From positions 1 to 62,365 of the IMG/VR virus record IMGVR_UViG_3300018868_000006: a DNA stretch of 62,365 nt. One strand, given 5' to 3'. A model generated the notes under the pieces. The model made no database searches. It was given only the letters and a program-made list of their open reading frames with translations, and was not told where the DNA came from. Made by a program: the position numbers and the translations under genes. This document shows, one piece after another, positions 6,570 through 61,113 of this stretch. The stretch is from a virus. The stretch's first letter is position 1; each line of letters begins with the position of its first letter.

Positions 6570-6575
6570 GACACA

Positions 6576-6863
6576 ATGAAAATACAAGATTGGGCGAAAC
6601 GAGAAGATCTTCAATTAGAATGGAAAAATCTCTGGGATAACAACGAGACACTTAAAAAAGGTTTAGATGTTTTAAAGGATGTTGCTCTACCAGCCGAGGG
6701 AAGAGCTCCGCAAGGTGTTGATACGATTCAGTACAATGCCTTGATGAATGCACGTCGCGAAGGGTATTACGATGCTCTCCGTAACATCGAGGCTCTGAAA
6801 GAAATTGTTAAACCAAACGTAGTCAATCCAGAACCTTGGGAAAACCTCAAAAAGGAAGATTAA
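6576..6863 (+). CDS. small head-region protein of unknown function
   Basis: A protein of 95 residues between portal and scaffold. It is charged, mostly helical, without signal peptide or membrane segment. It opens MKIQDWAKREDLQLEWKNLW and ends in a Pro/Trp tail (VVNPEPWENLKKED). Small proteins at this position in podoviruses are often head-completion or scaffold helpers, but I recognise no family. It starts with ATG, without a Shine-Dalgarno site and right after a TTGAC-N8-GTCAA dyad. The stop is separated from the next gene by 3 bases. Confidence 0.75.
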   Translation: MKIQDWAKREDLQLEWKNLWDNNETLKKGLDVLKDVALPAEGRAPQGVDTIQYNALMNARREGYYDALRNIEALKEIVKPNVVNPEPWENLKKED

Positions 6864-6866
6864 TTT

Positions 6867-8153: not shown

Positions 8154-8156
8154 TCC

Positions 8157-10154: not shown

Positions 10155-10159
10155 TACCT

Positions 10160-10777: not shown

Positions 10778-10778
10778 T

Positions 10779-11591: not shown

Positions 11592-11594
11592 GTA

Positions 11595-11621
11595 TTGACA
11601 GAATTCAAAGTGAGTTACGAT
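11595..11621 (+). promoter_or_regulatory. promoter candidate for the major capsid gene
   Basis: TTGACA (11595-11600), a 15-base spacer and TACGAT (11616-11621), the same spacing as at the portal and 34.7-kb promoters. It follows the spliced stop codon by 4 bases. The 215-base interval from 11592 to the capsid ATG otherwise holds a GC-rich leader with no gene I can support. Confidence 0.45.
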
Positions 11622-11806
11622 TTCTTTAGCTGTTAGGAATTGGCATGGGCGTACTCGCGGGCCGCCACCGCGTTAGCTAAGACCAAAACGAGCGCGGGCA
11701 ATAAAAGCTCTGGGATGCCGCCAGGGGAACCAAACATAGGAACTGCCATTACCTTCGGCAATGGACTTACAGTTCTTAACTCACTTTTGAAAGGATATTT
11801 AATAAT

Positions 11807-13129
11807 ATGGCTACGACTTATACAAATATCGAACAGTTGCTGGTTTCTGAAAGTTCCCGCATCGGTGACGATATTTATCGCAAGACAGTTGATACGAGCC
11901 CCTGGCTCAAATTGGTGAAACAAGATGCTTGGCCGGATGAGATGGGCGATTCCGTCTCTGTCTTGGTTTACGAGCGTTCGCTCCCTTACAATACTGACGG
12001 GTCTGCTAAAGTTAGCTGGTCCTCTACTGTAACGCAAAACGGTGCCGCCTATGGCTCATCGGATTTTGCGAGTGGGACCAACACCCTCAACAATACTGGA
12101 AATGACTCGGCCTCGGCCTCGGCATTCCCCACTTCACCCGCCAGCACCATTGACTTCGGTCAGACGCTTCGGACTTACGGGTTGTTCCACGCGGCACTCG
12201 AATCCCCGAACATCTCGCTGAACGATCTGCGCTTCCCGATGAAACGGAAAGAACAGCTCGCCAACATCATGCAGATTCTCACCGAATCTACTACTGAAGT
12301 CTGGATTCAGCGCTATCGCGATCAGTACATCTCGATCGCCCAGAACAAGTTGGTGGCTACCACAGACACCACCGCCTATACTGGGTTCGATACAACGATT
12401 ACTGGTGTTCAGCGTAACACGACTGGTTCAACCTCGGCAGCTCAGTCTTCGGCTGGCTTCTTGAACGGAGCTACTCCGCTCGCTGGTGGAACTCAGTTGA
12501 CCCAAACCATCCTTGATCGGGTGTATATGGATCTTCTCCGTAACGGAGCGGGTGCAAACGCCTACGATCGGAATAACGGAGCCCCTGTGTTCTTGGCGAT
12601 TATGTCGCCCGAAACCAGTGACTCCCTAATTCGCGCTAACGCGGATATCCGTCAGGACTTCCGTTGGAGCGATCGGGTTAGCGAATTGCTTGCTCCTCTT
12701 GGTGTGCAGCGCAGCTACCGCAACTTCCATCACTTGGTTGATGCGTTTGCTCCTCGCTACAAGATCACAAGCAATGCGTTCGTTCGTGTGTACCCCTTCA
12801 TCAAGGTTGCAAACGATCTTGGTAACGCCCGCCAAGGCTTCAAGTATGAGCTTAACTCTGAATACTTGAACGCTGCGTGGGAAGATACCATCATCTTTGT
12901 TCCCGATGTGTTCACGAGCTTGGTTCCCAAGCCCTTGAGCATCGGTAATGGGATGGAGTTCAACGCACAAAACTATCGTGGTGAGTTCACTTGGAGGAAC
13001 ATCCTCGATCGCGAAAAAAATCCAGATGGCACAGTAGGCTACTTCCGGGCTGTATTCAGCAACGGTGGCAAGCCCATCTTCCCCCATCAGGGCTACGTGA
13101 TCCGTCACTTGCGCAACACCATCGCCTAA
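11807..13129 (+). CDS. major capsid protein
   Basis: A protein of 440 residues with a good ribosome site (GAAAGGAT) and a 185-base leader behind a promoter-like element. It starts MATTYTNIEQLLVSESSRIGD and shows even, moderately hydrophobic composition without low complexity, including IDFGQTLRTYGLFHAALESP and a C-terminal RGEFTWRNILDREKNPDG region. It is in the standard position after scaffold, is the only long gene in a segment ending in a strong terminator, and has the size of an HK97-fold capsid subunit. It builds the icosahedral shell. The fold cannot be proven from the sequence alone. Confidence 0.8.
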   Translation: MATTYTNIEQLLVSESSRIGDDIYRKTVDTSPWLKLVKQDAWPDEMGDSVSVLVYERSLPYNTDGSAKVSWSSTVTQNGAAYGSSDFASGTNTLNNTGNDSASASAFPTSPASTIDFGQTLRTYGLFHAALESPNISLNDLRFPMKRKEQLANIMQILTESTTEVWIQRYRDQYISIAQNKLVATTDTTAYTGFDTTITGVQRNTTGSTSAAQSSAGFLNGATPLAGGTQLTQTILDRVYMDLLRNGAGANAYDRNNGAPVFLAIMSPETSDSLIRANADIRQDFRWSDRVSELLAPLGVQRSYRNFHHLVDAFAPRYKITSNAFVRVYPFIKVANDLGNARQGFKYELNSEYLNAAWEDTIIFVPDVFTSLVPKPLSIGNGMEFNAQNYRGEFTWRNILDREKNPDGTVGYFRAVFSNGGKPIFPHQGYVIRHLRNTIA

Positions 13130-13151
13130 TTAGAGAAAGGGGAACATTTAT

Positions 13152-13454
13152 ATGCCTCTTCCTATCTCTAATAAAACGCTGGATCAAGTTGAAGCAGCCA
13201 ACATTCGTGCCGCCCTTAACGGCGGCTCGGATTGGGGCACTTCTGGAACCACGATTGCTTCCGTTGGAGCCGCTACGGGTGGTGCTGCCACTACCCTCAG
13301 TGCTCTTACGGCTGCTTCTGGAACTGTTAGTGCAACATCAACCCTTGTTGATGTCACGGCTACTCCTACGCAGGCGACCATCAACGCTAACTTTCAGACT
13401 TTGGCGACAAAGCTGAATGTTGTGTTGAACCTCCTTCGCAACTTAAACGCCTAA
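13152..13454 (+). CDS. small Ala/Thr-rich capsid-associated protein
   Basis: A protein of 100 residues, extremely rich in Ala, Thr, Ser and Gly (SVGAATGGAATTLSALTAAS), preceded by GAGAAAGGGGAAC as ribosome site. The C-terminus is helical (INANFQTLATKLNVVLNLLRNL). It lies 22 bases after the capsid gene and before a terminator, so it is made with the capsid protein at high level. A head-decoration or head-fibre subunit role fits the position. No family recognised. Confidence 0.7.
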   Translation: MPLPISNKTLDQVEAANIRAALNGGSDWGTSGTTIASVGAATGGAATTLSALTAASGTVSATSTLVDVTATPTQATINANFQTLATKLNVVLNLLRNLNA

Positions 13455-13466
13455 GTTAATAATGGA

Positions 13467-13495
13467 GGCTCCTAGGGTTCTATCCCCTAGGGGCC
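13467..13495 (+). terminator. rho-independent terminator after the capsid operon
   Basis: An 11-base-pair stem, GGCTCCTAGGG pairing with CCCTAGGGGCC (one T.G pair), with a 7-base loop, followed by a T-rich tract (TTCACCTTTTCTT). It ends the capsid transcription unit and would insulate high capsid expression from the lysis genes. Confidence 0.8.
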
Positions 13496-13508
13496 TTCAC
13501 CTTTTCTT

Positions 13509-13841
13509 ATGCTGGCCAATCAAGTCGTAGTTCCGAAAAGCAAACAAGTCGCTGACGAGACTGGCGCACGAGAAGCGCCCGTTTCTAACGACCTTGTAGT
13601 TTTTCCGGTTCCCAATGGTTTTGTTCCCCCCGACGGCGTACAACCAGGGCAATCTTTTGAAGTTGTTGCTCGGGTTCAATACACCAAAGGCCAAATGATT
13701 CTCGAAGCGATTGAAGGGAATGAAGTTCGTATGGCTTCTACCATCAAGCGAGCAAAGATCCAAAAAGATGCTTCTTTTGAGAATGCAGTTGAGCAGGGGT
13801 TAAGCGAAACCGAGACAGGTGGAAGTGCGGGGATGGCTTGA
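13509..13841 (+). CDS. hypothetical protein, head-lysis junction
   Basis: A protein of 110 residues beginning MLANQVVVPKSKQVADETG. The middle (VVFPVPNGFVPPDGVQPGQSFEVVARVQYTKG) is beta-rich with a PPDG turn and reads like a small OB- or SH3-like barrel. The C-terminus is acidic and ends GGSAGMA. No membrane segment. It starts 14 bases after the capsid terminator without a clear ribosome site, and its end overlaps the next gene by 23 bases. Function not recognised. Confidence 0.65.
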   Translation: MLANQVVVPKSKQVADETGAREAPVSNDLVVFPVPNGFVPPDGVQPGQSFEVVARVQYTKGQMILEAIEGNEVRMASTIKRAKIQKDASFENAVEQGLSETETGGSAGMA

Positions 13842-14109
13842 TCTGACGGCAGCTATTGCCGAGCAAGCTATTGCGGATCTCGATCTCGCAATATCACCTT
13901 GCAAAGCAAAGCGAAAGCCAGATTGGGCGTTTACCCCAGAACACTTCCGTGAGTTCTTTGGGATGACGGAAGACTTGTTTCGGGTATGCGGCTTTCGGCT
14001 GAACCCAGAAGCAGTTCGTGATCGGCTAAATAAGAGACTAACAAAACTGGATAAAATACATGCCTCGCAAGGAAATAAACGAAATACTAGTAGAGCTAGC
14101 CGCCATTAA
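13819..14109 (+). CDS. hypothetical protein
   Basis: A protein of 96 residues from GTG 13819, overlapping the previous gene by 23 bases and the following gene by 50 bases. It is helical and charged (WLDLTAAIAEQAIADLDLAI, then FREFFGMTEDLFRVCGFRL and AVRDRLNKRLTKLDKIHAS), with a very basic Ser/Arg tail. The long overlap with the better-supported gene at 14060 makes the extreme C-terminus uncertain. No family recognised. Confidence 0.55.
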   Translation: MEVRGWLDLTAAIAEQAIADLDLAISPCKAKRKPDWAFTPEHFREFFGMTEDLFRVCGFRLNPEAVRDRLNKRLTKLDKIHASQGNKRNTSRASRH

Positions 14110-14290
14110 CGGAAAATTGGACGGTATTGCCGATCTTATTAAGAGGCATGACGACCATCTTTCTGGTCACGACGGCAGGCTCCGACACGTAGAGAAGAAT
14201 ATGAACGTTGCGTTTGGGTGGGCTGGTGCAATTGGGTTTTGTGCTTCCGTCGTAGGTACTTGGTTGTGGGAAAAGCTTGGAGTCAAATAA
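14060..14290 (+). CDS. coiled-coil plus membrane protein, XhlA/holin-like
   Basis: A protein of 76 residues. The N-terminal 45 residues form an amphipathic coiled coil with a heptad-like pattern (INEILVELAAINGKLDGIADL). A single membrane segment follows (AFGWAGAIGFCASVVGTWLW, about residues 49-69). This layout is that of XhlA-type lysis accessory proteins and of several phage holins. It is the first gene of the lysis cluster, upstream of a lipoprotein spanin candidate and an endolysin. Alternatively it is a membrane-associated structural protein. Confidence 0.6.
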   Translation: MPRKEINEILVELAAINGKLDGIADLIKRHDDHLSGHDGRLRHVEKNMNVAFGWAGAIGFCASVVGTWLWEKLGVK

Positions 14291-14314
14291 CATCTGTTGC
14301 GTCTAGACAAAAGT

Positions 14315-14728
14315 ATGTCAAAATCAGCTATGGGCGCCGTAACGATCCTAGCCTGTCTCATTCTTTCTGGTTGCACCACAGTTTCTAGTAAAGGATTACC
14401 TAATTTTTCAACTACTGAGGCAAGGTTGGATGCCGCCTCAGCCGTAGCCAACCCCGAGGCCAAGAAGCACATAGAGGCCGCTAGAGAGCAATTAAAAGCC
14501 GCTAAAGAGGCTTGCTATGCCAATACCGAGTCTTTGGAGCAGGCGATTAAGGAAAAGAACGAAGCTGTTAAGGACGCAGTTGTTTGGAAGGAAAAACAAA
14601 GGAAGGCTTTAAAGGAACTTTGGATCTACCGAGGTGCTATTATTGCCTTAGTGCTTTGGGTTTTCCGTGGGTTTCTTTTCAGCGGGGCTATGGCAATTGC
14701 TCGTAAGTTTGTGGGGATACCCTGGTGA
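14315..14728 (+). CDS. lipoprotein with C-terminal membrane anchor, u-spanin-like
   Basis: A 137-residue protein from ATG 14315. The lipobox LSGC puts the acylated cysteine at residue 20 after a basic N-terminus and hydrophobic core. Residues 35-100 are an alpha-helical, charged coiled-coil-like periplasmic segment (HIEAAREQLKAAKEACYAN). A membrane segment lies near the C-terminus (GAIIALVLWVFRGFLFSGAM). An outer-membrane lipid anchor plus an inner-membrane anchor on one chain is the unimolecular spanin layout, which fuses the two membranes at lysis. A TTG at 14297 could extend the N-terminus by six residues. Its last 4 bases overlap the next gene. Confidence 0.6.
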   Translation: MSKSAMGAVTILACLILSGCTTVSSKGLPNFSTTEARLDAASAVANPEAKKHIEAAREQLKAAKEACYANTESLEQAIKEKNEAVKDAVVWKEKQRKALKELWIYRGAIIALVLWVFRGFLFSGAMAIARKFVGIPW

Positions 14729-15066
14729 TCCATTGGCTTCGTAGCAACTTCCAAGGGCTATTGGCTCTCGGCGTCGCTATCATCGTATTTTTCTTTCTAG
14801 GCCCAATCCTTCAGGGTTTCGACACAACCGCTGGGGTCGTTGACTTGGGTTCGCTCCACGTCCTCGCATTTGGAGCTGTACGATTCCTTTTCTGCACATT
14901 CTTAAGTTGGTCGGTGCTTCAGATGGATTGGAAAATCCTTGATCGTTATGTCGATAAAGGAGTGCTCAAGGACGACTGGAAAGAAGCTTGTCCCAAGACA
15001 AGGCTGACAATCTTCTCGTTTGTTTTTGGGATCCTCCTGATCGCAGCAATTATTTCATGCAAATAA
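14725..15066 (+). CDS. membrane protein, holin candidate
   Basis: A protein of 113 residues, GTG start overlapping the lipoprotein stop (GTGA). Three hydrophobic segments are visible: LLALGVAIIVFFFLGPILQ, LHVLAFGAVRFLFCTFLSWSV and IFSFVFGILLIAAIIS. A charged cytoplasmic-looking stretch (DWKILDRYVDKGVLKDDWKE) lies between the second and third. It sits between the spanin-like and endolysin genes, the usual place for a holin that permeabilises the inner membrane. It resembles no holin family that I can name, so the role is contextual. Confidence 0.6.
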   Translation: MIHWLRSNFQGLLALGVAIIVFFFLGPILQGFDTTAGVVDLGSLHVLAFGAVRFLFCTFLSWSVLQMDWKILDRYVDKGVLKDDWKEACPKTRLTIFSFVFGILLIAAIISCK

Positions 15067-15587
15067 TATATGTTGCGCTTTTTATTGCGTTTCTTTCCGA
15101 CTCTTTGGCTAGCCCAGGAGTTGAGGCGTCGCGGGTTCTCGTCATTGAACAAGCCCGCAAAAGTATCGGTATTCGGGAAAAATCGGGACGCAACGACGGG
15201 CCCGTGGTGGACGAGATCCTTGCATCCGTAAACCTTGAAGGCACCAAAGCGCCGTGGTGCGCCGCATTCATCGTGTGGGTTGGTGACAAAGCCTTTGGGT
15301 CAACGTTACTCAATCCCTACCCTCGATCGGCTTGGAGCCCGATATTTCTCACGAAACCAACCTGGGATAGACAGAGGAAGGGAACCCCACTCAAGGCCGC
15401 CGATGTCTTTGGAATCTGGTTCAACTCGATGGGTCGCGTGGCGCACGTTGGCTTTGTGGAGAAAAACGAGGGGGATTGGCTCGTGACGATTGAGGGCAAT
15501 ACAAATGGTGGCGGGAGCCGGGACGGGGACGGCGTTTACAGGCGAAGACGTCTAGCTGCAAATGTCCTAGGCAGAGGGTGGCTATGA
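15057..15587 (+). CDS. secreted CHAP-domain endolysin
   Basis: A 176-residue protein from ATG 15057, chosen because it begins a signal sequence (MQIIYVALFIAFLSDSLAS); upstream in-frame starts would bury it. The mature part is a CHAP/NlpC-like cysteine amidase: Cys68 in GTKAPWCAAFIVW, His130 in GRVAHVGFVEK and the polar residue in IEGNTNGGG. It cleaves peptidoglycan in the periplasm. A host-Sec-exported or signal-arrest endolysin is implied by the hydrophobic N-terminus. It overlaps the holin-like gene by 10 bases and the nuclease gene by ATGA. Confidence 0.8.
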   Translation: MQIIYVALFIAFLSDSLASPGVEASRVLVIEQARKSIGIREKSGRNDGPVVDEILASVNLEGTKAPWCAAFIVWVGDKAFGSTLLNPYPRSAWSPIFLTKPTWDRQRKGTPLKAADVFGIWFNSMGRVAHVGFVEKNEGDWLVTIEGNTNGGGSRDGDGVYRRRRLAANVLGRGWL

Positions 15588-16009
15588 GCCTTCGGATTGG
15601 GGCAATCGGCGTTCAGAAAGTAGCCGCAAAGCTTCTCGAACAAGGCTTTCTTGTCAGTACTCCCATAATCGACGATGGGTACGATCTAATTACTGATTGG
15701 AAGGGGAAGCTGTGCCGAGTTCAGGTTAAAAGCACGATGGGCGCATCGGATGCACACGCTCGCAATAAAATGAAGTTCTTAGCTGTTCGCGGAGCTGGTT
15801 ATGGGTATGGAGCGTATTTGAAGATCAATAAAGAGAAGATGAAATACAAACCAAACGTATGTGATGCGTTTGTGTTTTACCATATTCCGCAAGACGCTGT
15901 CTTTGCTGTCCCCAGCAACAAGCTCCCAAAAACTAAATCGATTTACTTCTCACCCAATTCCTCTTGGAGAGACAACTGGGCTGTCTTGCGAAATTTTAGG
16001 AAAGGCTAG
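15584..16009 (+). CDS. PD-(D/E)XK-type nuclease
   Basis: A protein of 141 residues, ATG overlapping the endolysin stop. The start reads GAIGVQKVAAKLLEQGFLVSTP, then DDGYDLI (Asp34) and CRVQVKST (Gln47-x-Lys49), the order of helix, D, and (D/E/Q)xK of the restriction-endonuclease fold. It resembles the PD-(D/E)XK family that includes group I intron homing enzymes of the I-Ssp6803I type and related cellular DUF4365/Mrr-like proteins. It lies in the lysis cluster, where a nuclease is unexpected, about 4 kb from the intron. It could be a free-standing homing endonuclease, a Holliday-type resolvase or an anti-host nuclease. Confidence 0.6.
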   Translation: MSLRIGAIGVQKVAAKLLEQGFLVSTPIIDDGYDLITDWKGKLCRVQVKSTMGASDAHARNKMKFLAVRGAGYGYGAYLKINKEKMKYKPNVCDAFVFYHIPQDAVFAVPSNKLPKTKSIYFSPNSSWRDNWAVLRNFRKG

Positions 16010-16018
16010 AATTTGTTT

Positions 16019-18409
16019 ATGGCCAACGAATCTGATTTAACCCTATTTGATGGTCAGTATAATTGGACTAGGGGGATGGATTCGTCGTTAGCCCCTCAAA
16101 TAGCTGACCCAAATTCCGTAAGACTTGGGATTAATGTGACTTTTCGTGGCGGGCGCGCAAAGACTAGACCCGGCTTTCAGCAAATCTTTTTGACCGACGA
16201 TCCCGATTACCCCGGAAGTCTTGCCCTTTATTCTACTGGCCGAGATGCCCAAAACGCAAAAACTGGTAACTATTTCCAAGGAGCTTTCTTTTACGTCAAC
16301 AAAACAGATCCTAACAAATCGTGCTTAATCGTTTGCTCGGGAGGATATGTGTTTAGAATACGCCCAGTTGAGGGATATGTAGCTCGGTTACCCGTTTCGG
16401 AGTACTCGGTCATCGACAACGCAGGGACATTTCGTTGGGACTCCACAAGAAGGGTTTACTATTGCCAAGCGGAAAAATACCTAATCATCCAAAACGGGCT
16501 CGATAAGCCCTTGATATTTGACGGAGAGGTAGTTTACCAGGTTGGCGTAGGATCACTTGATACTATCGGGAATATTGCATCCGTGCCTGTTGGAACCTTT
16601 ATGACTTACGGGCAGGGGAGACTCTTTGTGGTTAACCCAGAAAAAGATAGTTTTACGGCTGGCGATATTGTTTACGGGGGGTCAACAAACCAAGTTGCGT
16701 TAAACTTTTCCAGTATCGGGGCTACGGCGATCCTACAAACTGTAGCGAACCACGGCTTTGCAGATAATTCTGTTGTTACAATTTCTGGCCACAGCTCTTC
16801 GCCTGATATCAATGGTACTTGGCGCATTACCCTTTTAAGCGCAAACACCTTCTCTATTCCAGTTGGGCTTTCAACAAGGGGTACAGGAGGGTTTGCCTCA
16901 GTTGCGCTTACAGGCAGAGATTCAGATTTACTTAGGTTTACTGAAACAACGTATTTAAATGAAGGTGGTAGTTTTCAAATCCCATCTCAGATGGGGAGCA
17001 TCCGAGGAATGATCTTTCAGCCAATCTCCGATACGGCTACTGGGCAAGGCGACCTTTTGGTGTTTGGGGAAAAGGGAGCAGTTTCTTTTGCCGTAGCAAA
17101 CCCTAGAGATGACTGGAAAAACCTTTCTGGCTTTATGCGGGTTGCTCTCGACAACATCGGCCTTGTTGCGGATCGATCGCTTGTAACGATCAACAACGAT
17201 ATTTTCTTCAGAAGCCTCGACGGTCTAAGAAGCTATCGCCACGCAAGAGCTCAAATTGAAGGTTATAATACTACTCCCCTTAGCTCAGAGATGGACTCGG
17301 TTATGGATTACGACACCGAAGGTCTCCTTGGCGATAGCTCGGCTGTTTATTTTGATAATCGACTTTTATATACTGTAAGTCCCCGCGAAAATTACGACAA
17401 CATCGAGGACGAGCCGATTAAGTTAAGACCCATTTCCCATCGCGGCTTGGGGGTACTAGATTTTAACTCGATGGGAAGCTCAGGAAATAAGCGACCCGCT
17501 ATTTTTGATGGTGTGTGGACAGGTGTCGATACCCTTCAACTTGTAACTGGGGTCACTCGAAGGCTTCCAAGATGTTTCGTTTTTGCTTATGACACCGACT
17601 CTAACAGCAATTTGCTTTGGGAGAATTATCCTTGGGCTCTATTTGATTTTCCACTTGGAGCCTCTAGCCGGAAGATTCCGTGTGCAATTGAGACGAGATC
17701 TTTCGACTTCAAAACCCCCTTTAACTTAAAGAAACTAACCCGAGGGGATCTTTGGATTGCGGAGTTATCTGGGGACACTCTTGTTAACGCTTATTGGAGA
17801 CCAGACGAAAACCCTTGTTGGTTTAATTGGCATACCTTTAATACGTGTGCCGAAACTGAAACTTGTCTTACTGGGATTGCCAACACTTCCGCAGTTTCTG
17901 GGATAAGTGTTGTTTCGTTTTCTGGCCGTACCCAAGAGTTGGCCACAACCTGGAAGATATCGTTTACCGATCCTTCTACTCAATTCTATGTTCGCCTAGG
18001 GAACACCCGAACTTCGTTTCTTGAGTTAAACACTACAAACCAAACTTGGGCAACAACTACCGCCGACACGCTTCGAACAGCTATGCAAAGCGCAGGGATG
18101 CCAGTAACAAGTGTAGTCAGGGAAAATAACGACTTCACGATTGTCTTCTCAGAATCAGTTGAAGCACCAATAGCAATTCCAGCTCCGTCGACCTGCCAGT
18201 TGTACCAACCCGCTAATGTACGGGACCAATACCGATCTCAAATTCGCCTGCCCACCCCATCCAACGAATGTGTTACTGCAAACAATACTTTGGCTAAAGT
18301 TGGCCACACCTTTCAATTCCGTTTTGAGTGGGAAGGGCAATTCGCAATTTCAAAGGTTATGTTTACTGCTTCGAGGCTTATCGAGCAGGTTGGAGGATCT
18401 TGCCCATGA
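16019..18409 (+). CDS. tail nozzle / stabilisation-like protein
   Basis: A protein of 796 residues from ATG 16019 (a TTG lies 6 bases upstream). The start NESDLTLFDGQYNWTRGMDSSLAP followed by VRLGINVTFRGGRAKTRPGFQQ is the pattern shared by podovirus tail nozzle or tubular proteins, which open with a variable list and a gene-specific RPGF turn. The body alternates WD-like beta blades and an Ig-like insert (NHGFADNSVVTISGHSSSPDINGTW). No catalytic motif. It probably closes the tail tip and holds DNA. The T7 gp12 and P22 gp10 roles are analogies, not demonstrated homology. Confidence 0.65.
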   Translation: MANESDLTLFDGQYNWTRGMDSSLAPQIADPNSVRLGINVTFRGGRAKTRPGFQQIFLTDDPDYPGSLALYSTGRDAQNAKTGNYFQGAFFYVNKTDPNKSCLIVCSGGYVFRIRPVEGYVARLPVSEYSVIDNAGTFRWDSTRRVYYCQAEKYLIIQNGLDKPLIFDGEVVYQVGVGSLDTIGNIASVPVGTFMTYGQGRLFVVNPEKDSFTAGDIVYGGSTNQVALNFSSIGATAILQTVANHGFADNSVVTISGHSSSPDINGTWRITLLSANTFSIPVGLSTRGTGGFASVALTGRDSDLLRFTETTYLNEGGSFQIPSQMGSIRGMIFQPISDTATGQGDLLVFGEKGAVSFAVANPRDDWKNLSGFMRVALDNIGLVADRSLVTINNDIFFRSLDGLRSYRHARAQIEGYNTTPLSSEMDSVMDYDTEGLLGDSSAVYFDNRLLYTVSPRENYDNIEDEPIKLRPISHRGLGVLDFNSMGSSGNKRPAIFDGVWTGVDTLQLVTGVTRRLPRCFVFAYDTDSNSNLLWENYPWALFDFPLGASSRKIPCAIETRSFDFKTPFNLKKLTRGDLWIAELSGDTLVNAYWRPDENPCWFNWHTFNTCAETETCLTGIANTSAVSGISVVSFSGRTQELATTWKISFTDPSTQFYVRLGNTRTSFLELNTTNQTWATTTADTLRTAMQSAGMPVTSVVRENNDFTIVFSESVEAPIAIPAPSTCQLYQPANVRDQYRSQIRLPTPSNECVTANNTLAKVGHTFQFRFEWEGQFAISKVMFTASRLIEQVGGSCP

Positions 18410-18588
18410 GCGAGGAGTGCCAAGCACTTGAATGCGGATGCTTCCAAGGCGTCTTCTCGGATATTGTATTTGGTGTCGTAGAAGTCCGAGATTATTTAGC
18501 TGACGAAAACAATATCCCATTTGTTATCGAGAACCCCGAACAATCAGGGTTTCAGACTATTGATGGCGAATATCTGGAGCTAAACTAA
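18406..18588 (+). CDS. small cysteine-containing tail-region protein
   Basis: A 60-residue protein from ATG 18406, overlapping the nozzle-like stop (ATGA) and followed by a TAATG overlap with the next gene. It contains ECGCFQGVF near the N-terminus and ends VIENPEQSGFQTIDGEYLEL. No membrane segment. The tight coupling with the nozzle and first collar gene suggests a tail component. The family is unrecognised. Confidence 0.6.
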   Translation: MSEECQALECGCFQGVFSDIVFGVVEVRDYLADENNIPFVIENPEQSGFQTIDGEYLELN

Positions 18589-19382
18589 TGTCTACCCGCA
18601 TCAGCAGCCTTACTACAGAGGCAAACCCACAGACAAACATTCTCCTGCCTTGTTTGGTATCTGGAGTTACACGGAAGGTTACGCTAAACTCAGTTCTTAA
18701 TTCCGTTACTGGTGGAACAGTAATAGCTGCGAATGTAACTGGTGGTTCTGGTATATCGGTTGCAATCGAGGGGACTGGGGATGCAAAGAGTTTAACTGTT
18801 TCCTTTAATGTGCCCGGGGTAATTGTTCCTTTCGCTGGGGGAGCCACAACCGAACCTTCGGGTTGGCTTTTCTGCAACGGACAAGCAATTTCTAGATCCG
18901 ACTACTCCTCTTTGTTTGGCGTGGTCGGCACTACCTATGGTAGCGGAAACGGCACAACTACATTCAACATCCCAGACCTACGTGGACGAATTCCATTTGG
19001 CGTTGCCGCAAATTCTTCAACAGCAAGTCCTTTAAATGGAGCAACCTTTGGTTCTGGAAACTTTCACACCTTAGCCTCTTCAGGCGGACAAGAAAACCAT
19101 CTAATAACCGCCGCCCAAACTCCAGTTAAAGATCATACTCATTCTGCCTCTGGTTCGATGACTGTGTTCGGTGACTACTCCGATACCCAAAATTGGGATG
19201 ACCCAAATGTTGGCCCACCAGAAAACTATTCAGATTATGGAAACTTGGGTGAAATTGCTCCCGGCACTCAAAAAACTATATCCTCTACTGCCAGTTCTTC
19301 TGCTCTCGCCCCTGTTGCAGCCGCCCTACCGCATTCAAATATTCCCCCAGTAATAGTTCTAAGTTACCTAATAAAGACATAA
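18588..19382 (+). CDS. tail collar-domain protein (copy 1 of 3)
   Basis: A protein of 264 residues. Residues about 80-150 are a phage tail collar (Tail_Collar, microcystin-dependent-like) domain: PSGWLFCNGQAISRSDYSSL, then TFNIPDLRGRIPFGV. A beta-rich N-terminus and a C-terminal tail with HTHSASGSMT and LPHSNIPPVIVLSYLIKT follow. Such proteins are short-fibre or baseplate-collar components. Two paralogues with the same order follow directly, so one origin by duplication is clear. TAATG coupling to the previous gene. Confidence 0.85.
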   Translation: MSTRISSLTTEANPQTNILLPCLVSGVTRKVTLNSVLNSVTGGTVIAANVTGGSGISVAIEGTGDAKSLTVSFNVPGVIVPFAGGATTEPSGWLFCNGQAISRSDYSSLFGVVGTTYGSGNGTTTFNIPDLRGRIPFGVAANSSTASPLNGATFGSGNFHTLASSGGQENHLITAAQTPVKDHTHSASGSMTVFGDYSDTQNWDDPNVGPPENYSDYGNLGEIAPGTQKTISSTASSSALAPVAAALPHSNIPPVIVLSYLIKT

Positions 19383-19384
19383 TT

Positions 19385-20134
19385 ATGCCAAACTTTAAAG
19401 TGACCAACTTAACAACTGCAAATGCTGTTGCAGAGGATTCTGTTTTACCTTGTCTCCAGAACGGAGTCACAAAACAAATATCTGTTCTTCAGATTAAAAA
19501 CTTCTTTGACGATGGAACAGTAACTCAAATATCGTCAGGGGAGGCTATACGTTGTGACCCAAACCCAATTACGGTCAGTGGTACTATATCGTTCTCAAGC
19601 CCCGGCTTAATGTCGCTTTATGCTGGCTCATCTGACCCTAGTGGTTGGCTTATTTGTGATGGTAGGTCTTTGGCTGTTTCGCAGTACTCAGACTTATTTA
19701 GCTCTATTGGTTATACTTATGGCGGCTCGGGAGCCAATTTTAACATACCCAACTTAGTTGGACGCTCTGTTTTTGGCTTAGACAACATGGAACTAGGCGC
19801 AGCTGGTAGGGTTACGGTTGCTGGCTCTTCCACGCTTGGGCAGACCGCTGGTAGCAGGCAACACACACTTTCAGCCGATCAAACACCGCTTGTGAGCCAT
19901 ACGCATTCATTCTCGGGGAGCTTTAACTTCAACGCAGACCCAAAAAGGACTGGTAATAATTCTAGCCATGCGACGGGATTCCCACGATCTAGCTTTAATA
20001 CTAGCAGTGGAGGAGCCAACACGTCTTTAACCTTAAGCATTAACACTTCATCTTCAGCTACAGGAGCAAATGCGCCAGAGGCGCACCCAAACCTACCGCC
20101 CTTCTTGCTCTTAAACTGGATTATAAAAATATGA
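19385..20134 (+). CDS. tail collar-domain protein (copy 2 of 3)
   Basis: A protein of 249 residues with the same layout as its left neighbour: an N-terminal segment (LPCLQNGVTKQISVL, matching the LPCLVSGVTRKVTL of copy 1), the collar core SGWLICDGRSLAVSQYSDLF with NFNIPNLVGRSVFGL, then HTHSFSGSFNF and a C-terminal HPNLPPFLLLNWIIKI. It overlaps copy 3 by ATGA. Divergence among the three copies is large, which suggests different roles or a heterotrimer. Confidence 0.85.
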   Translation: MPNFKVTNLTTANAVAEDSVLPCLQNGVTKQISVLQIKNFFDDGTVTQISSGEAIRCDPNPITVSGTISFSSPGLMSLYAGSSDPSGWLICDGRSLAVSQYSDLFSSIGYTYGGSGANFNIPNLVGRSVFGLDNMELGAAGRVTVAGSSTLGQTAGSRQHTLSADQTPLVSHTHSFSGSFNFNADPKRTGNNSSHATGFPRSSFNTSSGGANTSLTLSINTSSSATGANAPEAHPNLPPFLLLNWIIKI

Positions 20135-20898
20135 ATATATCTTATTTACCCGAAGTCGTTAGCCCAACAGGCGATCTGACCATCCCAGTAGTCTCGCAAG
20201 GACAATCTAAAAAAGTATTACTTAGTACCCTAGGGACTACTTTTTCTGGCTCTGGAAACGTTTCAAGGGTTGTTTCGGGTAACAATATTATGTTAAACCC
20301 GTCCACAATTACAAAAACAGGGGTTGCTAACTTCTATTTTCCAGGCTCTCTTTATCCTCTCCCAAGCACAAACATCCCGGCTGGTTGGCTTCTTTGCCAA
20401 GGTCAGGAAGTTTCTCGGGTGGCTTATAAGAACTTATTTGATGTCATTGGTGTAAGTTATGGGCCGGGAGACAATCGAATCACCTTCAATTTACCCGATC
20501 TACGAGGTCGAACCATTGTCGGGCTTGAAACTATGGGTGGCTCCGTTTCCTCGGGGCGTTTAACTAATTCTAGACCTGGCAACCTAGATGCGTCTGTTCG
20601 AGGCAACACAGGCGGGAATCAATCCCATACCCTTATAAGCCAAGAGGTCGGCTTACAATCTCACAACCATACTCATAGCCTAACTGCAAGTTTTGGAGGG
20701 GATGTGGAGAGGGGTAATACGGGAAATGGTGGGGATGGGGGTGAATCTGGTCGCTTCCCCCCTGGTTCGAGCCTAGGCAGTTCGCGTGCAGTAACCCTAA
20801 ACTACTCTTTTACAAATAACGCAGCTTCGAACTCCTCAGCAACAAGTCATCCAAATCTCCCACCCCTTGTCTTTTTAAATTGGGTGATAAAGTTCTGA
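20131..20898 (+). CDS. tail collar-domain protein (copy 3 of 3)
   Basis: A protein of 255 residues, paralogue of the two preceding genes: GWLLCQGQEVSRVAYKNLFDV, FNLPDLRGRTIVGLETMGG, HNHTHSLTASFGGD and a C-terminal HPNLPPLVFLNWVIKF. The second half has a Gly-rich loop (GNTGNGGDGGESGRFPPG). Same probable role as a short tail fibre or collar protein; the tandem trio ends here. Confidence 0.85.
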   Translation: MNISYLPEVVSPTGDLTIPVVSQGQSKKVLLSTLGTTFSGSGNVSRVVSGNNIMLNPSTITKTGVANFYFPGSLYPLPSTNIPAGWLLCQGQEVSRVAYKNLFDVIGVSYGPGDNRITFNLPDLRGRTIVGLETMGGSVSSGRLTNSRPGNLDASVRGNTGGNQSHTLISQEVGLQSHNHTHSLTASFGGDVERGNTGNGGDGGESGRFPPGSSLGSSRAVTLNYSFTNNAASNSSATSHPNLPPLVFLNWVIKF

Positions 20899-20899
20899 T

Positions 20900-21268
20900 A
20901 TGGCTCTAATTTCTGGCTCGCTTCCTCCTCAAACCTGTTACGGAACGCCCCAGCAACTATTGGATTTGTTTGCGCAATATCTCTCGCCACCCACGCAAAA
21001 TGTAGTTTTAGAAGGTACGCTTACCTATGATTTTCCAGTTAACCCAAACTCGACTGTTGGGAGCAACAGCACGGCAACCTTAAGTGTGGCTGGGGCAAGC
21101 GTGGGAGACCCTGTTTTGGTGGGACTACCTTCAAGCCCTACGTCGGGCGTTGTGTTTGATGCTTATGTGGCTTCCCCCAACAGCGTAACAGTAAGATGTA
21201 ACTACCTAACCACAACCGCCAACCCAGGATCACAAACCTTTAAGATCAAGGTTTTCAAGGTTTCCTAA
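20900..21268 (+). CDS. small beta-rich tail-region protein
   Basis: A protein of 122 residues. It ends with a beta domain (STATLSVAGASVGDPVLVGLP, then VVFDAYVASPNSVTVRCNY, NPGSQTFKIKVFKV) that is common at the tip of phage fibres. The N-terminal 35 residues are a helical QLLDLFAQYLSPPTQN segment. It is likely a virion component with the collar genes. No exact family recognised. Confidence 0.65.
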   Translation: MALISGSLPPQTCYGTPQQLLDLFAQYLSPPTQNVVLEGTLTYDFPVNPNSTVGSNSTATLSVAGASVGDPVLVGLPSSPTSGVVFDAYVASPNSVTVRCNYLTTTANPGSQTFKIKVFKVS

Positions 21269-22552
21269 ATGCCGCTCACCCTTCTTGAAGCCAAGGCGGC
21301 GCTTTCACCTTTTGTCGATAATGGCGTTTGCCCAACTGATTCTCGAGTTGTAGCCAGAATTAACGAGGCACAGCGAAGACTACATAGTCTTCGTGCTTGG
21401 CTTGGCGTTCTCGCAAGGTATTCCGTCACCGTCGTTAATAATCAGTTTACCCTCCCGCCAGCTACCTCAAACATCACTACTCCCGCTGGTTTTGGTCTTG
21501 AGAGTGCAATGCGAGTTTCCTCGACAACTTCTGCGGAAGGTTTTCTGACCAACGGGATTCAAGCATACTTAACCGACACCACAGACGTCCTACCCCTAAA
21601 CTTTGTCCCGTCATCAAGCGATTTTCGAACCTACTCAATTGAGGGTCAGGCTCCAGCTCGAGTCGAGATTACTGGTAAATTAAACTTTGTAGCGGCCGCT
21701 TCGGATACTGACCTTCTGATTATTGACGACGTGGATGCCCTCAAGCTTATGATTTTGGCTCTGTACCGCGAGGAGAACAATCAACTTGAATTAGCCCAAG
21801 CTCTCGAAAATAAAGCAGTCGAACGTTTAACTTCTAAAACAGATCAAGCTCTAGAATCTGCGAGGAGGATTAATTTCCAAACCAAACGAGCCAGCACGAT
21901 CCCAAACAGCCTGGGAGATATGCGAGCCAAGCTTGCTTTAGACTTAAACCTAGGGATTAGAACTTCCGACGCTGAAATGGTTGAATTACTCAATACTGCG
22001 GAGGAAGCCTTGTTCGCCAGAGGGTGCTGGTATGGGACGATTGAGACCTACCGAGTCAACGTCACCAACACCAATGAGATTCTTTTGCCCACCCAAATTG
22101 GGACTGTGCTTGGGATTACTATGGGAGGATCTTCCGTTTCCGTATTTGATCGAAGATATGATTTCCATGAAAACGGTCCTGGTTACCAAGAAAAAGATAC
22201 CTCGGGTTATGATATGCTTATCGATCGAGGTGAAGTCTATGTAAACAATGAGTGGAAGCGGCGTTATTTTATCCGAGATTCAAAAGCTGTTGAATGCGTG
22301 AACATCTTGGCCAAGAAAAGGTGGTTACCTAAGTATCGAGATAGCGAAAAGATGGATATACGGAACTACCCCGCGATCAAAGAAATGGTGCAGGCTCTAA
22401 AAAGCCAAGAGCCAGAAAAAGTCGTTTTCTACGAAAACAAAGCAATCGCGTTATTGCAAAAAGAACTTTCAGAGATGCGAGGAGGAGCCAAGGGACACAT
22501 TCAAGTGCAAATGAAGAACTTTGCATTGAGCGAAATCCCTTCCTTAATGTAA
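21269..22552 (+). CDS. head-to-tail adaptor-like protein, internally duplicated
   Basis: A protein of 427 residues in two related halves. Residues 1-215 contain LTLLEAKAALSPFVDNG, then DSRVVARINEAQRRLHSLRAWLGVLARYSVTVVNNQFTLP. Residues 218-427 contain MRAKLALDLNLGIRTSDAEM, then LLNTAEEALFARGCWYGTIETYRVNVTNTNEILLP. The helix-strand order matches T7 gp11-like tail tubular adaptors, which form the ring between portal and nozzle. A two-domain version is unusual, and would let a ring of fewer subunits span the same interface. Stop and start are coupled to the small following gene by TAATG. Confidence 0.6.
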   Translation: MPLTLLEAKAALSPFVDNGVCPTDSRVVARINEAQRRLHSLRAWLGVLARYSVTVVNNQFTLPPATSNITTPAGFGLESAMRVSSTTSAEGFLTNGIQAYLTDTTDVLPLNFVPSSSDFRTYSIEGQAPARVEITGKLNFVAAASDTDLLIIDDVDALKLMILALYREENNQLELAQALENKAVERLTSKTDQALESARRINFQTKRASTIPNSLGDMRAKLALDLNLGIRTSDAEMVELLNTAEEALFARGCWYGTIETYRVNVTNTNEILLPTQIGTVLGITMGGSSVSVFDRRYDFHENGPGYQEKDTSGYDMLIDRGEVYVNNEWKRRYFIRDSKAVECVNILAKKRWLPKYRDSEKMDIRNYPAIKEMVQALKSQEPEKVVFYENKAIALLQKELSEMRGGAKGHIQVQMKNFALSEIPSLM

Positions 22553-57227: not shown

Positions 57228-57551
57228 TCATTCCGTATGTTTCTTGATGTCTGCCTTGAGGGCACGATACGCCACGATAACGTCGTGTAGTTTCTTCTCT
57301 TGATCGTGAACAATAGACAAAAGTTTGAATGTGGCGTTTATGTTGTGCCATAATTTACTTGCCACACGATCACTGCTTATGATGTCCATCCCACCCATAC
57401 CCTCGTTGTATTGTTGCCACTTGTTACAATCTTCATCATACATCCAACCAGTAATCAGGTGAACTAGACTGGATAAACCAGATGCCGTTTCGGGGTCATG
57501 CTGTTCTTCTGCCAGCTTAACAATTCGTAGTGCTGTTTCTTTTGTGAGCAT
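57228..57551 (-). CDS. hypothetical helical protein
   Basis: A protein of 107 residues coupled by TAATG to the upstream DUF6915-like gene. MLTKETALRIVKLAEEQHDPE, then LVHLITGWMYDEDCNKWQQYN and NINATFKLLSIVHDQEKKLHD. Alpha-helical with aromatic patches; no catalytic motif. The unit TGAAAGGAGAATACTAAT at its start is repeated before the next gene. Confidence 0.55.
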   Translation of the reverse strand: MLTKETALRIVKLAEEQHDPETASGLSSLVHLITGWMYDEDCNKWQQYNEGMGGMDIISSDRVASKLWHNINATFKLLSIVHDQEKKLHDVIVAYRALKADIKKHTE

Positions 57552-58015
57552 TAGTATTCTCCTTTCACCCCGTATGCACTTCGCATTGGGTTGGTTTCTT
57601 GTATGTCCTCGGCAAACGTGTGGCGTTTGTCGTTAACTAAATCGTGTTGGTCGACTGACATAGACTGGTAGTCCCGACTTTCTTCGGGAAGTTTCTGCGT
57701 CTTGCCCATCCAGACTTGTGGTTGGATGTGGCAAAACCAGTCTTGCATACTTGGGATTCTCCCAAGGTCTTCCGATACGTGTTGCTCTGCCACCCATCGT
57801 GTCGGAACTTTGCGTCCGTCACTATTGGTGATCGTATGACCGAAGATTCTCTCTGCCATAAAGCAACCCTCGGCGTGATGCCGTAGTGCCCTATGCCGGA
57901 AGTCGGCCATCATCATCTTGCTCTCGTCGAACCAATCGTGGATGGCTTGGTAATCCTCTGCCTTGCCACCCCATTTCTTTGCCGAGCTGACTGCGTGGTG
58001 GTAGGGGTTAGCCAT
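57551..58015 (-). CDS. DUF6915-like protein
   Basis: A protein of 154 residues. MANPYHHAVSSAKKWGGKAEDYQAIHDWFDESK, then RHRALRHHAEGCFMAERIFGHTI and EQHVSEDLGRIPSMQDWF follow the DUF6915 pattern closely, with many conserved His and Trp that could bind metal or a ligand. Phages and plasmids often carry it in early or accessory blocks. Function unknown. TAATG couplings on both sides show it is co-translated. Confidence 0.75.
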   Translation of the reverse strand: MANPYHHAVSSAKKWGGKAEDYQAIHDWFDESKMMMADFRHRALRHHAEGCFMAERIFGHTITNSDGRKVPTRWVAEQHVSEDLGRIPSMQDWFCHIQPQVWMGKTQKLPEESRDYQSMSVDQHDLVNDKRHTFAEDIQETNPMRSAYGVKGEY

Positions 58016-58521
58016 TAGTAGGTCTCTTCGGTTGTCTCTACGGACTCAACCCGTTGGTTGAAGGTGAGGTCAATCTTGTTGCCTTTGCCGAACTTGAATA
58101 CGAATTCTCCGTATGAACCTTCGTTGATCTCCCAACCTCCGTGGTTAGCCCCAAGTAAGTCGTAACAAATCTGTTCGACTAACTCCTCGATGTTCGGGGA
58201 TTTAGTAGTGGTGACCCACTCCTTCTTGGTTTCACAATAAGTTGTTGAGTCGTTTATACTTGCATCTGCAACTATAAGTTTCTTAATCATGTCTACATTA
58301 TTGATCCGTTGCTTACCCGCAAAGTAACGCACCTCATCTATCTGACCCGAATCTCCGCTACCAGAGAACTCTGCTTCAATTCGGGTGATTCTGAGTAGCT
58401 TAACAGCTGTGGCTAGTGCGGCTTTGTTCAGCTCTGCACTAGTGGCTCTCTTCTTTCTGTCCTTCGCCATCTGCTCCATAATACTTTTCATATCTATTCC
58501 TAATTCTTTATCTTTGCTCAT
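58015..58521 (-). CDS. DUF6878-like protein
   Basis: A protein of 168 residues from ATG 58521, chosen because AAAGGAGAAACAACA precedes it; earlier in-frame starts overlap the VWA gene. EAEFSGSGDSGQIDEVRYF, then GANHGGWEINEGSYGEFVFK is the DUF6878 signature (GSGDSGQI and GGWE-N-G-GEF). It lies between DUF6915-like and VWA genes, and these families tend to travel together in phages and plasmids. Confidence 0.7.
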   Translation of the reverse strand: MSKDKELGIDMKSIMEQMAKDRKKRATSAELNKAALATAVKLLRITRIEAEFSGSGDSGQIDEVRYFAGKQRINNVDMIKKLIVADASINDSTTYCETKKEWVTTTKSPNIEELVEQICYDLLGANHGGWEINEGSYGEFVFKFGKGNKIDLTFNQRVESVETTEETY

Positions 58522-58546
58522 TGTTGTTTCTCCTTTTCTTTCTTGG

Positions 58547-59902
58547 TTAGTAACCGCAAGAAACTTCACCGATGAGAAGGGGACCGCTCTGGGCTTGTCC
58601 TTGTGCAACCTTCTTGAGATACGAAACCGCATCTCCAATGTGTCGGTGCATAATGGCCTTGGCCTTGATGGCCAACACCCTTGCCTCTGCTGTTAGATGT
58701 GAGTAGGTGCTGTCTGTTCTGCCGTCGGTGACTTGTCCGTCGCATACCCATAGGAGTGGCTCGTTCTGGAAACGCTTGGACTTGATTGCCCAGCGTAAGG
58801 CTGGTCCGTCAACGCCGTTACCATAGCCGTGACGTGTGGGTAATTTGTCTACCATCTTGCCGTCCTTGGCTAGTACCCAGAAGTTGGGAACGTTCTTGCT
58901 CCCTTCCTTGTGGGCATAGAGGGCGACAGTAGCTCCAGGTGCTGCGTTAAGTATCTCTAGGATGTCCTCACTCCGAACGCTCATTGAACCCGAGCCGTCG
59001 ATCAACACGACACCGCCTGAGTTACGCTTCGTCCGATCAAAGATCCGACGATACGGGTCAGTCAGCATCCGATGGATACGGCGAGGGTTGCGCCCCGTAG
59101 GAGAGGCCAGCTTGACCTTGCCTAGGTTGCCGTTGTGTAACCGAGTCAAGGGTGCTGGGCCTTGGCAAAGGTCACCGAACTTGGCGTTCATATCTGCACT
59201 CAAGTGCTCATCATTACGTTTCTTGAAGGACGGAATAGTGCCTGTCTCTTCAGCCAAGGCAGCACATTTGTCCAACAACATTGCGATCCTCTCGGTCACG
59301 GCAAAGCCACGATTGAGAAGCTTGTTACGACTGCCCGGTATGGGTTTGTCGGAAGCAAGTTCGGAGCTATGCGTATCGAGAATCTCACCAATCGAGTCAG
59401 CAAGATTCTCGATCGACTCCAACATACTGGAGTCACCAAGTTCATCACACGCCTTGTCGATGCCCTTGAGCCAAGAGTCCCAACTGGCAGTACCATAAAC
59501 GGCAGACGTGCAATAAACTAGGCGTTTCATATCCTTAGCTTTCGCACAGGTGTATGCGTTGTTGCCGTCGTTGATATCTAGCAGATGGGTCTCGGGTTCG
59601 AAGTTGAGCTTCGACAAGACACGATTGATACGTGCTTCCTCGGCCGCAATCAGAGAATCAAAGGAAGCTTTGCCTCGTTTGATCCAAGGCTTCAGATCGG
59701 GTGGACTCAACCGAACGTGCATCAACTCGTGTGCTCGTATGTGTCGAGCTGTCTCGTCGTTGTCCAAGGGGACGTGCATTGTATTGGTTGCGATGCTTGT
59801 CTTGGGTGCACCACGAATGCCAGCACATCGGATGATGTCCCAACGTTCGTTAGCACCACGCTCACCGCCCATCTGGCGGATAAACTCTGGATATACTCTC
59901 AT
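58547..59902 (-). CDS. VWA protein with N-terminal HELMH metallopeptidase-like motif
   Basis: A protein of 451 residues with AAAGGAGAATCA. ARHIRAHELMHVRL (His58, Glu59, His62) is an HExxH motif in the first domain. The C-terminal third is a von Willebrand A domain: GGVVLIDGSGSMSV with the MIDAS Asp302-x-Ser304-x-Ser306, and LLWVCDGQVTDG, the D of the third loop. The middle is helical. It matches the layout of the cobaltochelatase/VWA proteins that partner MoxR ATPases. With the AAA+ gene next to it the pair forms a MoxR-VWA system, which usually remodels proteins. A phage role is unknown. Confidence 0.8.
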   Translation of the reverse strand: MRVYPEFIRQMGGERGANERWDIIRCAGIRGAPKTSIATNTMHVPLDNDETARHIRAHELMHVRLSPPDLKPWIKRGKASFDSLIAAEEARINRVLSKLNFEPETHLLDINDGNNAYTCAKAKDMKRLVYCTSAVYGTASWDSWLKGIDKACDELGDSSMLESIENLADSIGEILDTHSSELASDKPIPGSRNKLLNRGFAVTERIAMLLDKCAALAEETGTIPSFKKRNDEHLSADMNAKFGDLCQGPAPLTRLHNGNLGKVKLASPTGRNPRRIHRMLTDPYRRIFDRTKRNSGGVVLIDGSGSMSVRSEDILEILNAAPGATVALYAHKEGSKNVPNFWVLAKDGKMVDKLPTRHGYGNGVDGPALRWAIKSKRFQNEPLLWVCDGQVTDGRTDSTYSHLTAEARVLAIKAKAIMHRHIGDAVSYLKKVAQGQAQSGPLLIGEVSCGY

Positions 59903-59937
59903 TGATTCTCCTTTCTGTGAGGGTTAAAGGTTGCGGG

Positions 59938-60672
59938 TTAGTCGTTGCTCGGGGTGAGGGTGTCGACCTTGATGGCGTCGAGGAACTCACGAGCCGAGCC
60001 AGCAAACAACAAGTTCGCTGCACGTTCTGCACCTACCGACTTGCGGAGGTTGTCGAACGCATAGAAGGAACGAAGGTCAATACGACGATCGCCCAAGTCA
60101 GCGGCACGTTCGGCGTAAGCCCGAAGGTCAGACGACAAGCGGTTCAATGCTGTGACGTGTGGCTTGTTGACTCGAACACGGATAGGGAAGCGGGAACGAA
60201 TCGCCTCGGGCAAGTCGGTCAACTCCTCAAGGTTCGTCGTCATCACAACGCTGAAGCCTTTCTTAGGAGTTTCGGTCTCACCAGTCTGGGGATTCTCCCA
60301 CTTGCAGGATTCCGGGGAGTCGGTCATAGCAAGCAACGTGGCGAACACGTCACCGCCAGCCTTGTCGATCTCGTCGACAATCAAGCGACCACCTGAACGC
60401 CAAGCCTTAACAGCCTGACCCTCGTGCCAAGAGAAAGTACCTTTCTCGTTGGGCATCCAAGCACCAGTCACATCAGCGTTGGTCATATCTGGGGTGCAGA
60501 TAAGACGGAACGTCGGACGTTCTTGCGTTGCCATTGTCAGACCAGCGTAGGTCTTGCCAGTTCCAGGAGGTCCGTAAAGAACAAGGCGATCTACGCCAGC
60601 GTTCAATGCGTCCTCGATGTCTTTCCAGCAGTCGGTTGTTGTTGATTTCGTTTTGGTTTTTGGTGTAGGCAT
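59938..60672 (-). CDS. MoxR-type AAA+ ATPase
   Basis: A protein of 244 residues with AAAGGAGAAACCCACA. Walker A is GPPGTGKT (34-41), Walker B LIVDEIDK (97-104), sensor 1 the Asn147 in VVMTTNLEEL, and the Arg fingers are within IRSRFP (159-161). The insert with ADVTGAW and the lack of N- or C-terminal partner domains fit the MoxR clade. It hydrolyses ATP in a hexamer to remodel a client, here probably through the VWA protein that follows. The C-terminus (FYAFDNLRKSVGAERAANLLF) is the small lid domain. Confidence 0.85.
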   Translation of the reverse strand: MPTPKTKTKSTTTDCWKDIEDALNAGVDRLVLYGPPGTGKTYAGLTMATQERPTFRLICTPDMTNADVTGAWMPNEKGTFSWHEGQAVKAWRSGGRLIVDEIDKAGGDVFATLLAMTDSPESCKWENPQTGETETPKKGFSVVMTTNLEELTDLPEAIRSRFPIRVRVNKPHVTALNRLSSDLRAYAERAADLGDRRIDLRSFYAFDNLRKSVGAERAANLLFAGSAREFLDAIKVDTLTPSND

Positions 60673-60702: not shown

Positions 60703-61113
60703 TTACTGAGCTTGGTTGTTCTTGGTGTCTTGCTCGGACTTTCTTTTCCGATTCTCAAGAATGGTTTCTTTGATCTTGTCTCTGACTTCTTGCAATTCCT
60801 TGGGCATATCCATAGCGAATCCGCTATTGGCAAAGTCGTGGTCAGGAATGCAGGCCGTGGATGATGTGCAAAGCATCATCACGATTTGGGAGAACATCTC
60901 GTCGTTGCACTTGGCAATCAAACCAAGGGCAGACAAAGAGGCTTTCACCCTCTCGCAAGTCTTGGTTTCTTCGCCACCAGTTACCTTGGCGGCAATCATC
61001 CCAAGCATCTTCAAGAGATCGACGTCTGCTTTCTCTGCGGTAGTTCGAATGCTGATGCACTCGACGCCCGATGTGGCTTTCTCTTCACTCGTACCAATAT
61101 TGATTCTGCTCAT
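60703..61113 (-). CDS. hypothetical protein upstream of MoxR
   Basis: A protein of 136 residues. GVECISIRTTAEKADVDLLKMLGMI, then KTCERVKASLSALGLIAKCND and a C-terminal charged tail of Lys/Glu/Gln repeats (RDKIKETILENRKRKSEQD). It is first gene of the MoxR-VWA block, separated by 30 bases from the ATPase, and may be a client or adaptor of the pair. AAGGAGAAACAACT gives a good ribosome site. Confidence 0.6.
   Translation of the reverse strand: MSRINIGTSEEKATSGVECISIRTTAEKADVDLLKMLGMIAAKVTGGEETKTCERVKASLSALGLIAKCNDEMFSQIVMMLCTSSTACIPDHDFANSGFAMDMPKELQEVRDKIKETILENRKRKSEQDTKNNQAQ

Follow-up and report, generated by a model that had tools for sequence, protein, structure and literature searches.

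A MoxR-type ATPase and a HExxH-bearing VWA protein encoded as a two-gene unit in viruses and in actinobacterial chromosomes

In the NorQ/NorD system, the client of which is nitric oxide reductase, a NorQ hexamer holds a finger of NorD in its pore while the linker is stretched (PMC13036017). Group 2.2 jumbo phages encode a MoxR ATPase together with a vWA protein that has an N-terminal metallopeptidase (ASV44729.1/ASV44728.2), and virion assembly has been proposed as the role of this pair (PMC7824862). The cobST genes are found in many tailed viruses, where they have been proposed to act through the CobN of the host (PMC8651126). Phage copies of such pairs had been described as rarely studied in the initial annotation of the DNA considered here; in view of the latter two reports, they are less neglected than claimed.

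The present study concerns a pair of this kind in the window, i.e., the whole stretch of DNA that was analysed, a 62,365-base IMG/VR record from an uncultivated virus. It has the same two-gene architecture as the jumbo-phage pair, to which it is likened by the published description and not by sequence. Unlike that pair, the family also occurs in smaller genomes (records of 62–72 kb) and in chromosomes. Because the combination of MoxR with a metallopeptidase-vWA protein was already described (PMC7824862), and because the HExxH segment has relatives in CobT-like proteins of actinophages, we regard the family as a branch of a known kind. It forms a new subfamily for which Pfam has no model. New here are the chromosomal copies in Acidimicrobiia, which lie next to lexA, the gene of a DNA-damage repressor, and nrdR.

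A two-gene core

The ATPase gene and the VWA/HELMH gene are intact, adjacent and co-oriented in an ORF check, as first annotated (Table 1). They are separated by 35 bases, and AAAGGAG precedes the start of the VWA gene. The record also encodes an integrase and one virion structural match; given the integrase, the virus may be temperate. Seven plus-strand ORFs of 385–798 aa at 3137-22549 (+), where the structural region should be, have no PHROGs match at 1e-5. The 613-aa C5 cytosine methyltransferase may contain a long insertion, since Pfam matches it in two separate stretches.

Table 1. Features of the window discussed in the text (all positions are window positions)
Feature	Position	Strand	Remarks
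Integrase	1096-2349	-	phrog_1, 1.8e-27
C5 cytosine methyltransferase, 613 aa	49802-51643	-	Pfam match in two stretches
DUF6915 protein	57551-58015	-	Pfam 1.2e-49; near relatives only, outside core
DUF6878 protein	58015-58539	-	Pfam 1.9e-26; near relatives only, outside core
Zincin-like/VWA partner, 451 aa	58547-59902	-	
MIDAS, DGSGSM, residues 302-307 (Asp302, Ser304, Ser306)	58982-58999	-	Asp388 further on
Glu88-Glu89 of EExRxN, candidate third metal ligand	59636-59641	-	invariant; model helix 81-98
HELMH (His58, Glu59, His62), predicted metal site	59717-59731	-	invariant 40/40
AAA+ ATPase, 244 aa, MoxR clade	59938-60672	-	AAA_5; midasin/NorQ/CbbQ-like
Sensor-1 Asn147	60232-60234	-	
Walker B, DEID	60364-60387	-	
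Walker A, GPPGTGKT	60550-60573	-	
Helical ORF (hel), 136 aa, upstream neighbour	60703-61113	-	near relatives only, outside core

Scanning with the single VWA protein, using patterns that avoided HExxH, retrieved six relatives, and a scan with a VWA alignment retrieved 64 loci. As the pattern of the latter contained the HE motif, the scan was repeated from the ATPase side, where an ATPase alignment gave 272 confirmed viral loci. Among the best 80 of these 272 ATPase-selected loci, every one had an adjacent VWA partner with HExxH...EExR and the MIDAS signature DxSxS (80/80). Wherever both genes were readable, the ATPase gene was directly upstream of the VWA gene on the same strand (63/63), and 28 of the 63 pairs have an intergenic spacing of -4 to +3 bases. 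The identities of the ATPase and the VWA protein correlate (Spearman 0.90, 29 pairs, permutation p 0.002), as shared descent would give as well. The pair is an inseparable core unit of two genes. Several MAG contigs that carry it are probably of viral origin, binned together with bacterial sequences. In a tblastn search of 50,697 phage records, three members of the family retrieved no relative.

The initial annotation had read the pair, the helical ORF upstream and the DUF6878 and DUF6915 proteins downstream as one five-gene machine for host takeover or defence. The five genes are indeed adjacent in the window, where Pfam confirms both DUFs, and they are adjacent again in four near relatives. 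However, of 144 loci, 10 had hel, 8 had DUF6878 and 8 had DUF6915 in the vicinity of the pair; all of these loci belong to close relatives of the window, most of them are duplicates in which two scans fetched the same contig, and in distant relatives the three genes were not found beside the pair. Moreover, DUF6915 is present in 112 phage records, none of which had the VWA protein at E 0.01. As the three genes are limited to near relatives and DUF6915 occurs without the VWA protein, the core is two genes; the synteny check thus upheld the MoxR-VWA pair, conserved in all of the 80 loci above, and not the larger set. PADLOC revealed no defence family apart from weak similarity of the generic AAA kind to IetA and others; the defence system was rejected on this ground, and we consider a five-gene machine of either sort extremely unlikely.

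In other viruses, the frequent neighbours of the pair are small genes, and the annotated recurrent ones are non-structural. Of 29 viral genomes, 15 encode a DUF1599 nucleotide-modification-associated protein near the pair, about 2.2 kb downstream (e.g. L012 7312-8004), and 12 have an Api92/DUF1281 protein as a neighbour. Counts from this neighbour search (BLAST against the genes of one genome), as from the box search described below (exact patterns), are lower bounds. In 16 of the 29 genomes, the gene immediately upstream of that of the ATPase (median offset -78 bases) encodes an unannotated protein of 120–170 aa, which at L041 4674-5195 and in relatives occupies the place of the window's helical ORF.

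The genomic setting bears on whether the pair could act in virion assembly or processing, as a chaperone and maturation protease for structural proteins. This is the role proposed for the jumbo-phage MoxR-vWA pair with its N-terminal metallopeptidase (PMC7824862). In the window, however, the pair belongs to a minus-strand block of small genes and the structural match is on the plus strand; elsewhere the annotated recurrent neighbours are of the non-structural kinds just described, and actinobacterial chromosomes hold the pair at lexA/nrdR amid housekeeping genes. The viral neighbours (DUF1599, Api92-like) speak against a role confined to the virion, as do the chromosomal copies, and we find this explanation quite unlikely.

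The ATPase and its VWA partner

The ATPase has Walker A and B motifs, the sensor-1 Asn, an Arg finger and an AAA_5/AAA_3 domain, as expected of the MoxR clade. Both Pfam matches are over the cut-off (AAA_5, 70.9 bits, 1.4e-19; the MoxR-type AAA_3, 30.9 bits with a cut-off of 27 bits), in agreement with the MoxR-type label originally assigned. Residues G34, G37, G39-T41, D100-E101, N147 and R161 are invariant in 29 relatives. Profile matches in the PDB are to midasin (1.2e-30), CbbQ and NorQ, and in the sequence alignment residues 30–154 extend along midasin across the region of the helix-2 beta-hairpin insert.

Alignments and an AlphaFold2 model divide the partner into an N-terminal metallopeptidase-like domain, a helical linker and a C-terminal VWA domain with a MIDAS. 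HELMH, including the Glu59 pointed out previously, occupies residues 58–62. Eleven residues, H58, E59, H62, E88, E89, R91, N93, D302, S304, S306 and D388, are invariant in 40 aligned members with identities down to 29%, and HExxH, EExRxN and DxSGSM are all invariant in the same alignment. Judged from these sequences, the conservation of HExxH and EExRxN is far beyond chance. The VWA domain combines the VWA fold with DxSxS and a distal Asp, as in VWA domains with a MIDAS; there is no clear equivalent of the MIDAS threonine in it, and N362 and D365 are invariant in the 40 sequences. HExxH followed by a downstream acidic motif is the sequence signature of zincin-like proteins, and the N-terminal domain is probably zincin-like, with a predicted metal site.

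The model was built from 40 sequences (mean pLDDT 85), a run with 7 sequences having been poor (pLDDT 57.6). It consists of three short strands, the HExxH helix, the EExR helix, further helical structure reaching to about residue 220 and the VWA domain from about residue 290. The best structural match of the latter is the VWA domain of NorD in the NorQ-NorD complex (Z 9.4, 153 aligned residues, rmsd 3.7), a ranking that is not decisive because other VWA domains are close behind at Z 9.1 and below. For the partner model, Foldseek against the PDB gave nothing at 0.001 or better, and MutS and ABC proteins (E above 0.001, TM near 0.13) were dismissed as noise. No solved metallopeptidase was matched by Foldseek or by a second structure comparison, which covered almost only residues 291–439. 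Similar viral models are those of a Gordonia phage CobT-like protein, halovirus VWFA proteins and a cyanophage metallopeptidase. In Pfam, no family was over its cut-off for the window VWA protein, and DUF2201 (PF13203/PF09967), a family of metallopeptidase-VWA proteins, had no match among 29 members at E 1. The sole library family found to hold the partner is phrog_33218 (PHROGs, unknown function; 1.5e-44), an unannotated family that was matched by all 29 members tested, in the window protein over the C-terminal 200 residues only.

The N-terminal segment is related to that of actinophage CobT-like proteins, with a profile score of 40 compared to a maximum of 19.8 among 60 shuffled controls. 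These VWA proteins (from DSL-LC01, Pumpernickel, GodonK, GMA2 and others) likewise have HExxH about 30 residues before E-E-x-R-x-E, followed by a VWA domain with DxSxS, and in DSL-LC01 an AAA+ gene adjoins the CobT-like gene, as in the present pair. They differ in their length (565–755 aa), in their linker and in sequence, with about 16–20% identity in a joint alignment, and the actinophage ATPases match the present ATPase weakly.

CobS and CobT themselves are likewise an AAA+ and VWA pair, and the VWA part of our protein aligns to CobT (hhalign E 1.3e-4). CobT has HDxxxH...EQxR where the present family has HExxH; a homology of the N-terminal parts looked good by eye and is not claimed, the score being 19.7 compared to up to 21.1 for 30 shuffled controls. 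The alignment of the VWA part would fit a viral cobaltochelatase, CobST, that uses the CobN of the host and raises cobalamin for ribonucleotide reduction, and viral CobST is widespread, with a role already proposed (PMC8651126). However, CobN/ChlH (PF02514) was absent from the 31 virus records and 16 actinobacterial genomes with the pair that were searched (0/47, with several of these incomplete and the virus hosts outside the search). In addition, Pfam CobT had no match among 29 members at E 1, and the window is without the large subunit of ribonucleotide reductase, which is encoded in some pair-carrying virus records. The missing CobN largely rules out the cobaltochelatase role, which we deem very unlikely.

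Both the AAA+ and the VWA parts have NorQ/NorD among their best solved matches. To our knowledge, NorD does not carry a HExxH domain. The same AAA+/VWA machine could operate without a protease, with HExxH as a metal- or client-binding site, and do no more than remodel an enzyme or load metal into it, in the manner of NorQD, CbbQO or RavA/ViaA. This would agree with NorQ/NorD and CbbQ as the closest solved structures and with the similar His/His/Glu set of the chelatase subunit CobT, although the N-terminal profile score for CobT does not exceed that of shuffled controls. A mere metal site, however, would not need Glu59, and 80/80 viral copies (best 80 of 272) retain the complete HExxH, glutamate included. 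We regard such a non-proteolytic machine as possible, if doubtful.

Copies in actinobacterial chromosomes

A profile search found the family in 11 of 198 Acidimicrobiia genomes. Nine of these and two genomes found earlier share one locus, with the order ATPase, VWA, a small LysM-like gene, nrdR, a PIG-L gene and the gene for DNA polymerase IV. Directly upstream, on the opposite strand, lexA is found in 7 of the 11 shared-locus genomes, and the contigs are up to 392 kb. The pair is flanked by housekeeping genes on both sides; in L077, LexA, NrdR, MiaA and HflX exceeded their NCBIfam cut-offs. For the small gene, a LysM match fell just short of the cut-off in L124, and two other copies gave none. 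In a tree of cellular and viral copies, rooted by midpoint only, the Acidimicrobiia clade has a support of 100/100.

A second chromosomal group (L070/L133) has a different location, with another VWA gene and a NERD-helicase as neighbours. Two MAG contigs titled Bifidobacterium breve (L069 and L072) hold an actinobacterial form close to L070, and their titles look wrong. L066, one of the MAG contigs that are probably viral, is placed by the tree on very short branches beside the viral L011. A bacterial paralogue of the VWA protein, L128 (G176:C30:1-13000), is without HExxH, so that catalysis may not be needed everywhere; the same genome also has a HELGH copy, L127 (G176:C36).

The shared locus raises the question of whether the pair is a stress or DNA-damage module whose target, in cells and perhaps also in phages, belongs to the SOS or replication network of proteins. 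The position of the pair between lexA and the LysM-like gene, followed by the nrdR, PIG-L and DNA polymerase IV genes, points in this direction. So do LexA-type boxes between lexA and the ATPase gene. Boxes are also found before the small LysM-like gene, here as two boxes 24–25 bases apart (L077 9371-9409, L078 9375-9413, L079 9330-9367 and relatives). In contrast, at four loci without an adjacent lexA (L078, L120, L121 and L123), exact patterns found no box immediately before the ATPase gene, which means that the boxes may serve lexA only. They are suggestive, and SOS control of the pair was not accepted on account of these four loci. The viral copies are also without such a context and the second chromosomal group lies elsewhere, and we hold a damage module to be rather unlikely. 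The short motif CGACCGTTGnGA is shared by most members of the clade; it precedes the ATPase gene by some tens of bases (L077 7233, L078 7233, L079 7149, also L119 and L121-L125), also at loci without an adjacent lexA. From its position, it is possibly a promoter element or an operator.

A candidate remodelling machine

The explanation that we prefer, and to which we give an even chance, is an ATP-driven remodeller resembling NorQD, in which the VWA partner has a metal-bound zincin-like domain and the client is not part of the virion. The 244-aa AAA+ protein would form a ring of the NorQ/CbbQ/midasin type, on which the partner would dock through its C-terminal VWA domain. Hydrolysis of ATP could then make the VWA domain and the N-terminal zincin-like domain shift against each other and tug at the helical linker, as reported for NorQD (PMC13036017). 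A divalent metal, presumably held at His58, His62 and Glu88/89 of the N-terminal domain, would be used to bind the client protein and, somewhat more probably than otherwise, also to cut it. A job outside the virion is suggested because bacterial chromosomes hold the pair among housekeeping genes. A more specific proposal is that of an unnamed family of ATP-driven metalloproteases in viruses and actinobacterial chromosomes. Its VWA-tethered zincin would be driven by a NorQ-like ring onto one specific client in DNA damage or nucleotide control, as hinted by the lexA/nrdR neighbourhood, and the viral copies would control the same client in the host; this we consider unlikely.

In conclusion, the pair belongs to a large family, with 272 viral loci confirmed by a single scan, that is without a Pfam model and without a tblastn relative, for three queries, in 50,697 phage records. 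Its unit is the pair and not a five-gene set, and the absence of CobN sets this MoxR-VWA-metallopeptidase pair apart from cobalamin synthesis. The copies beside lexA and nrdR provide a cellular setting for testing the function of the viral pairs, which has so far been conjectural.
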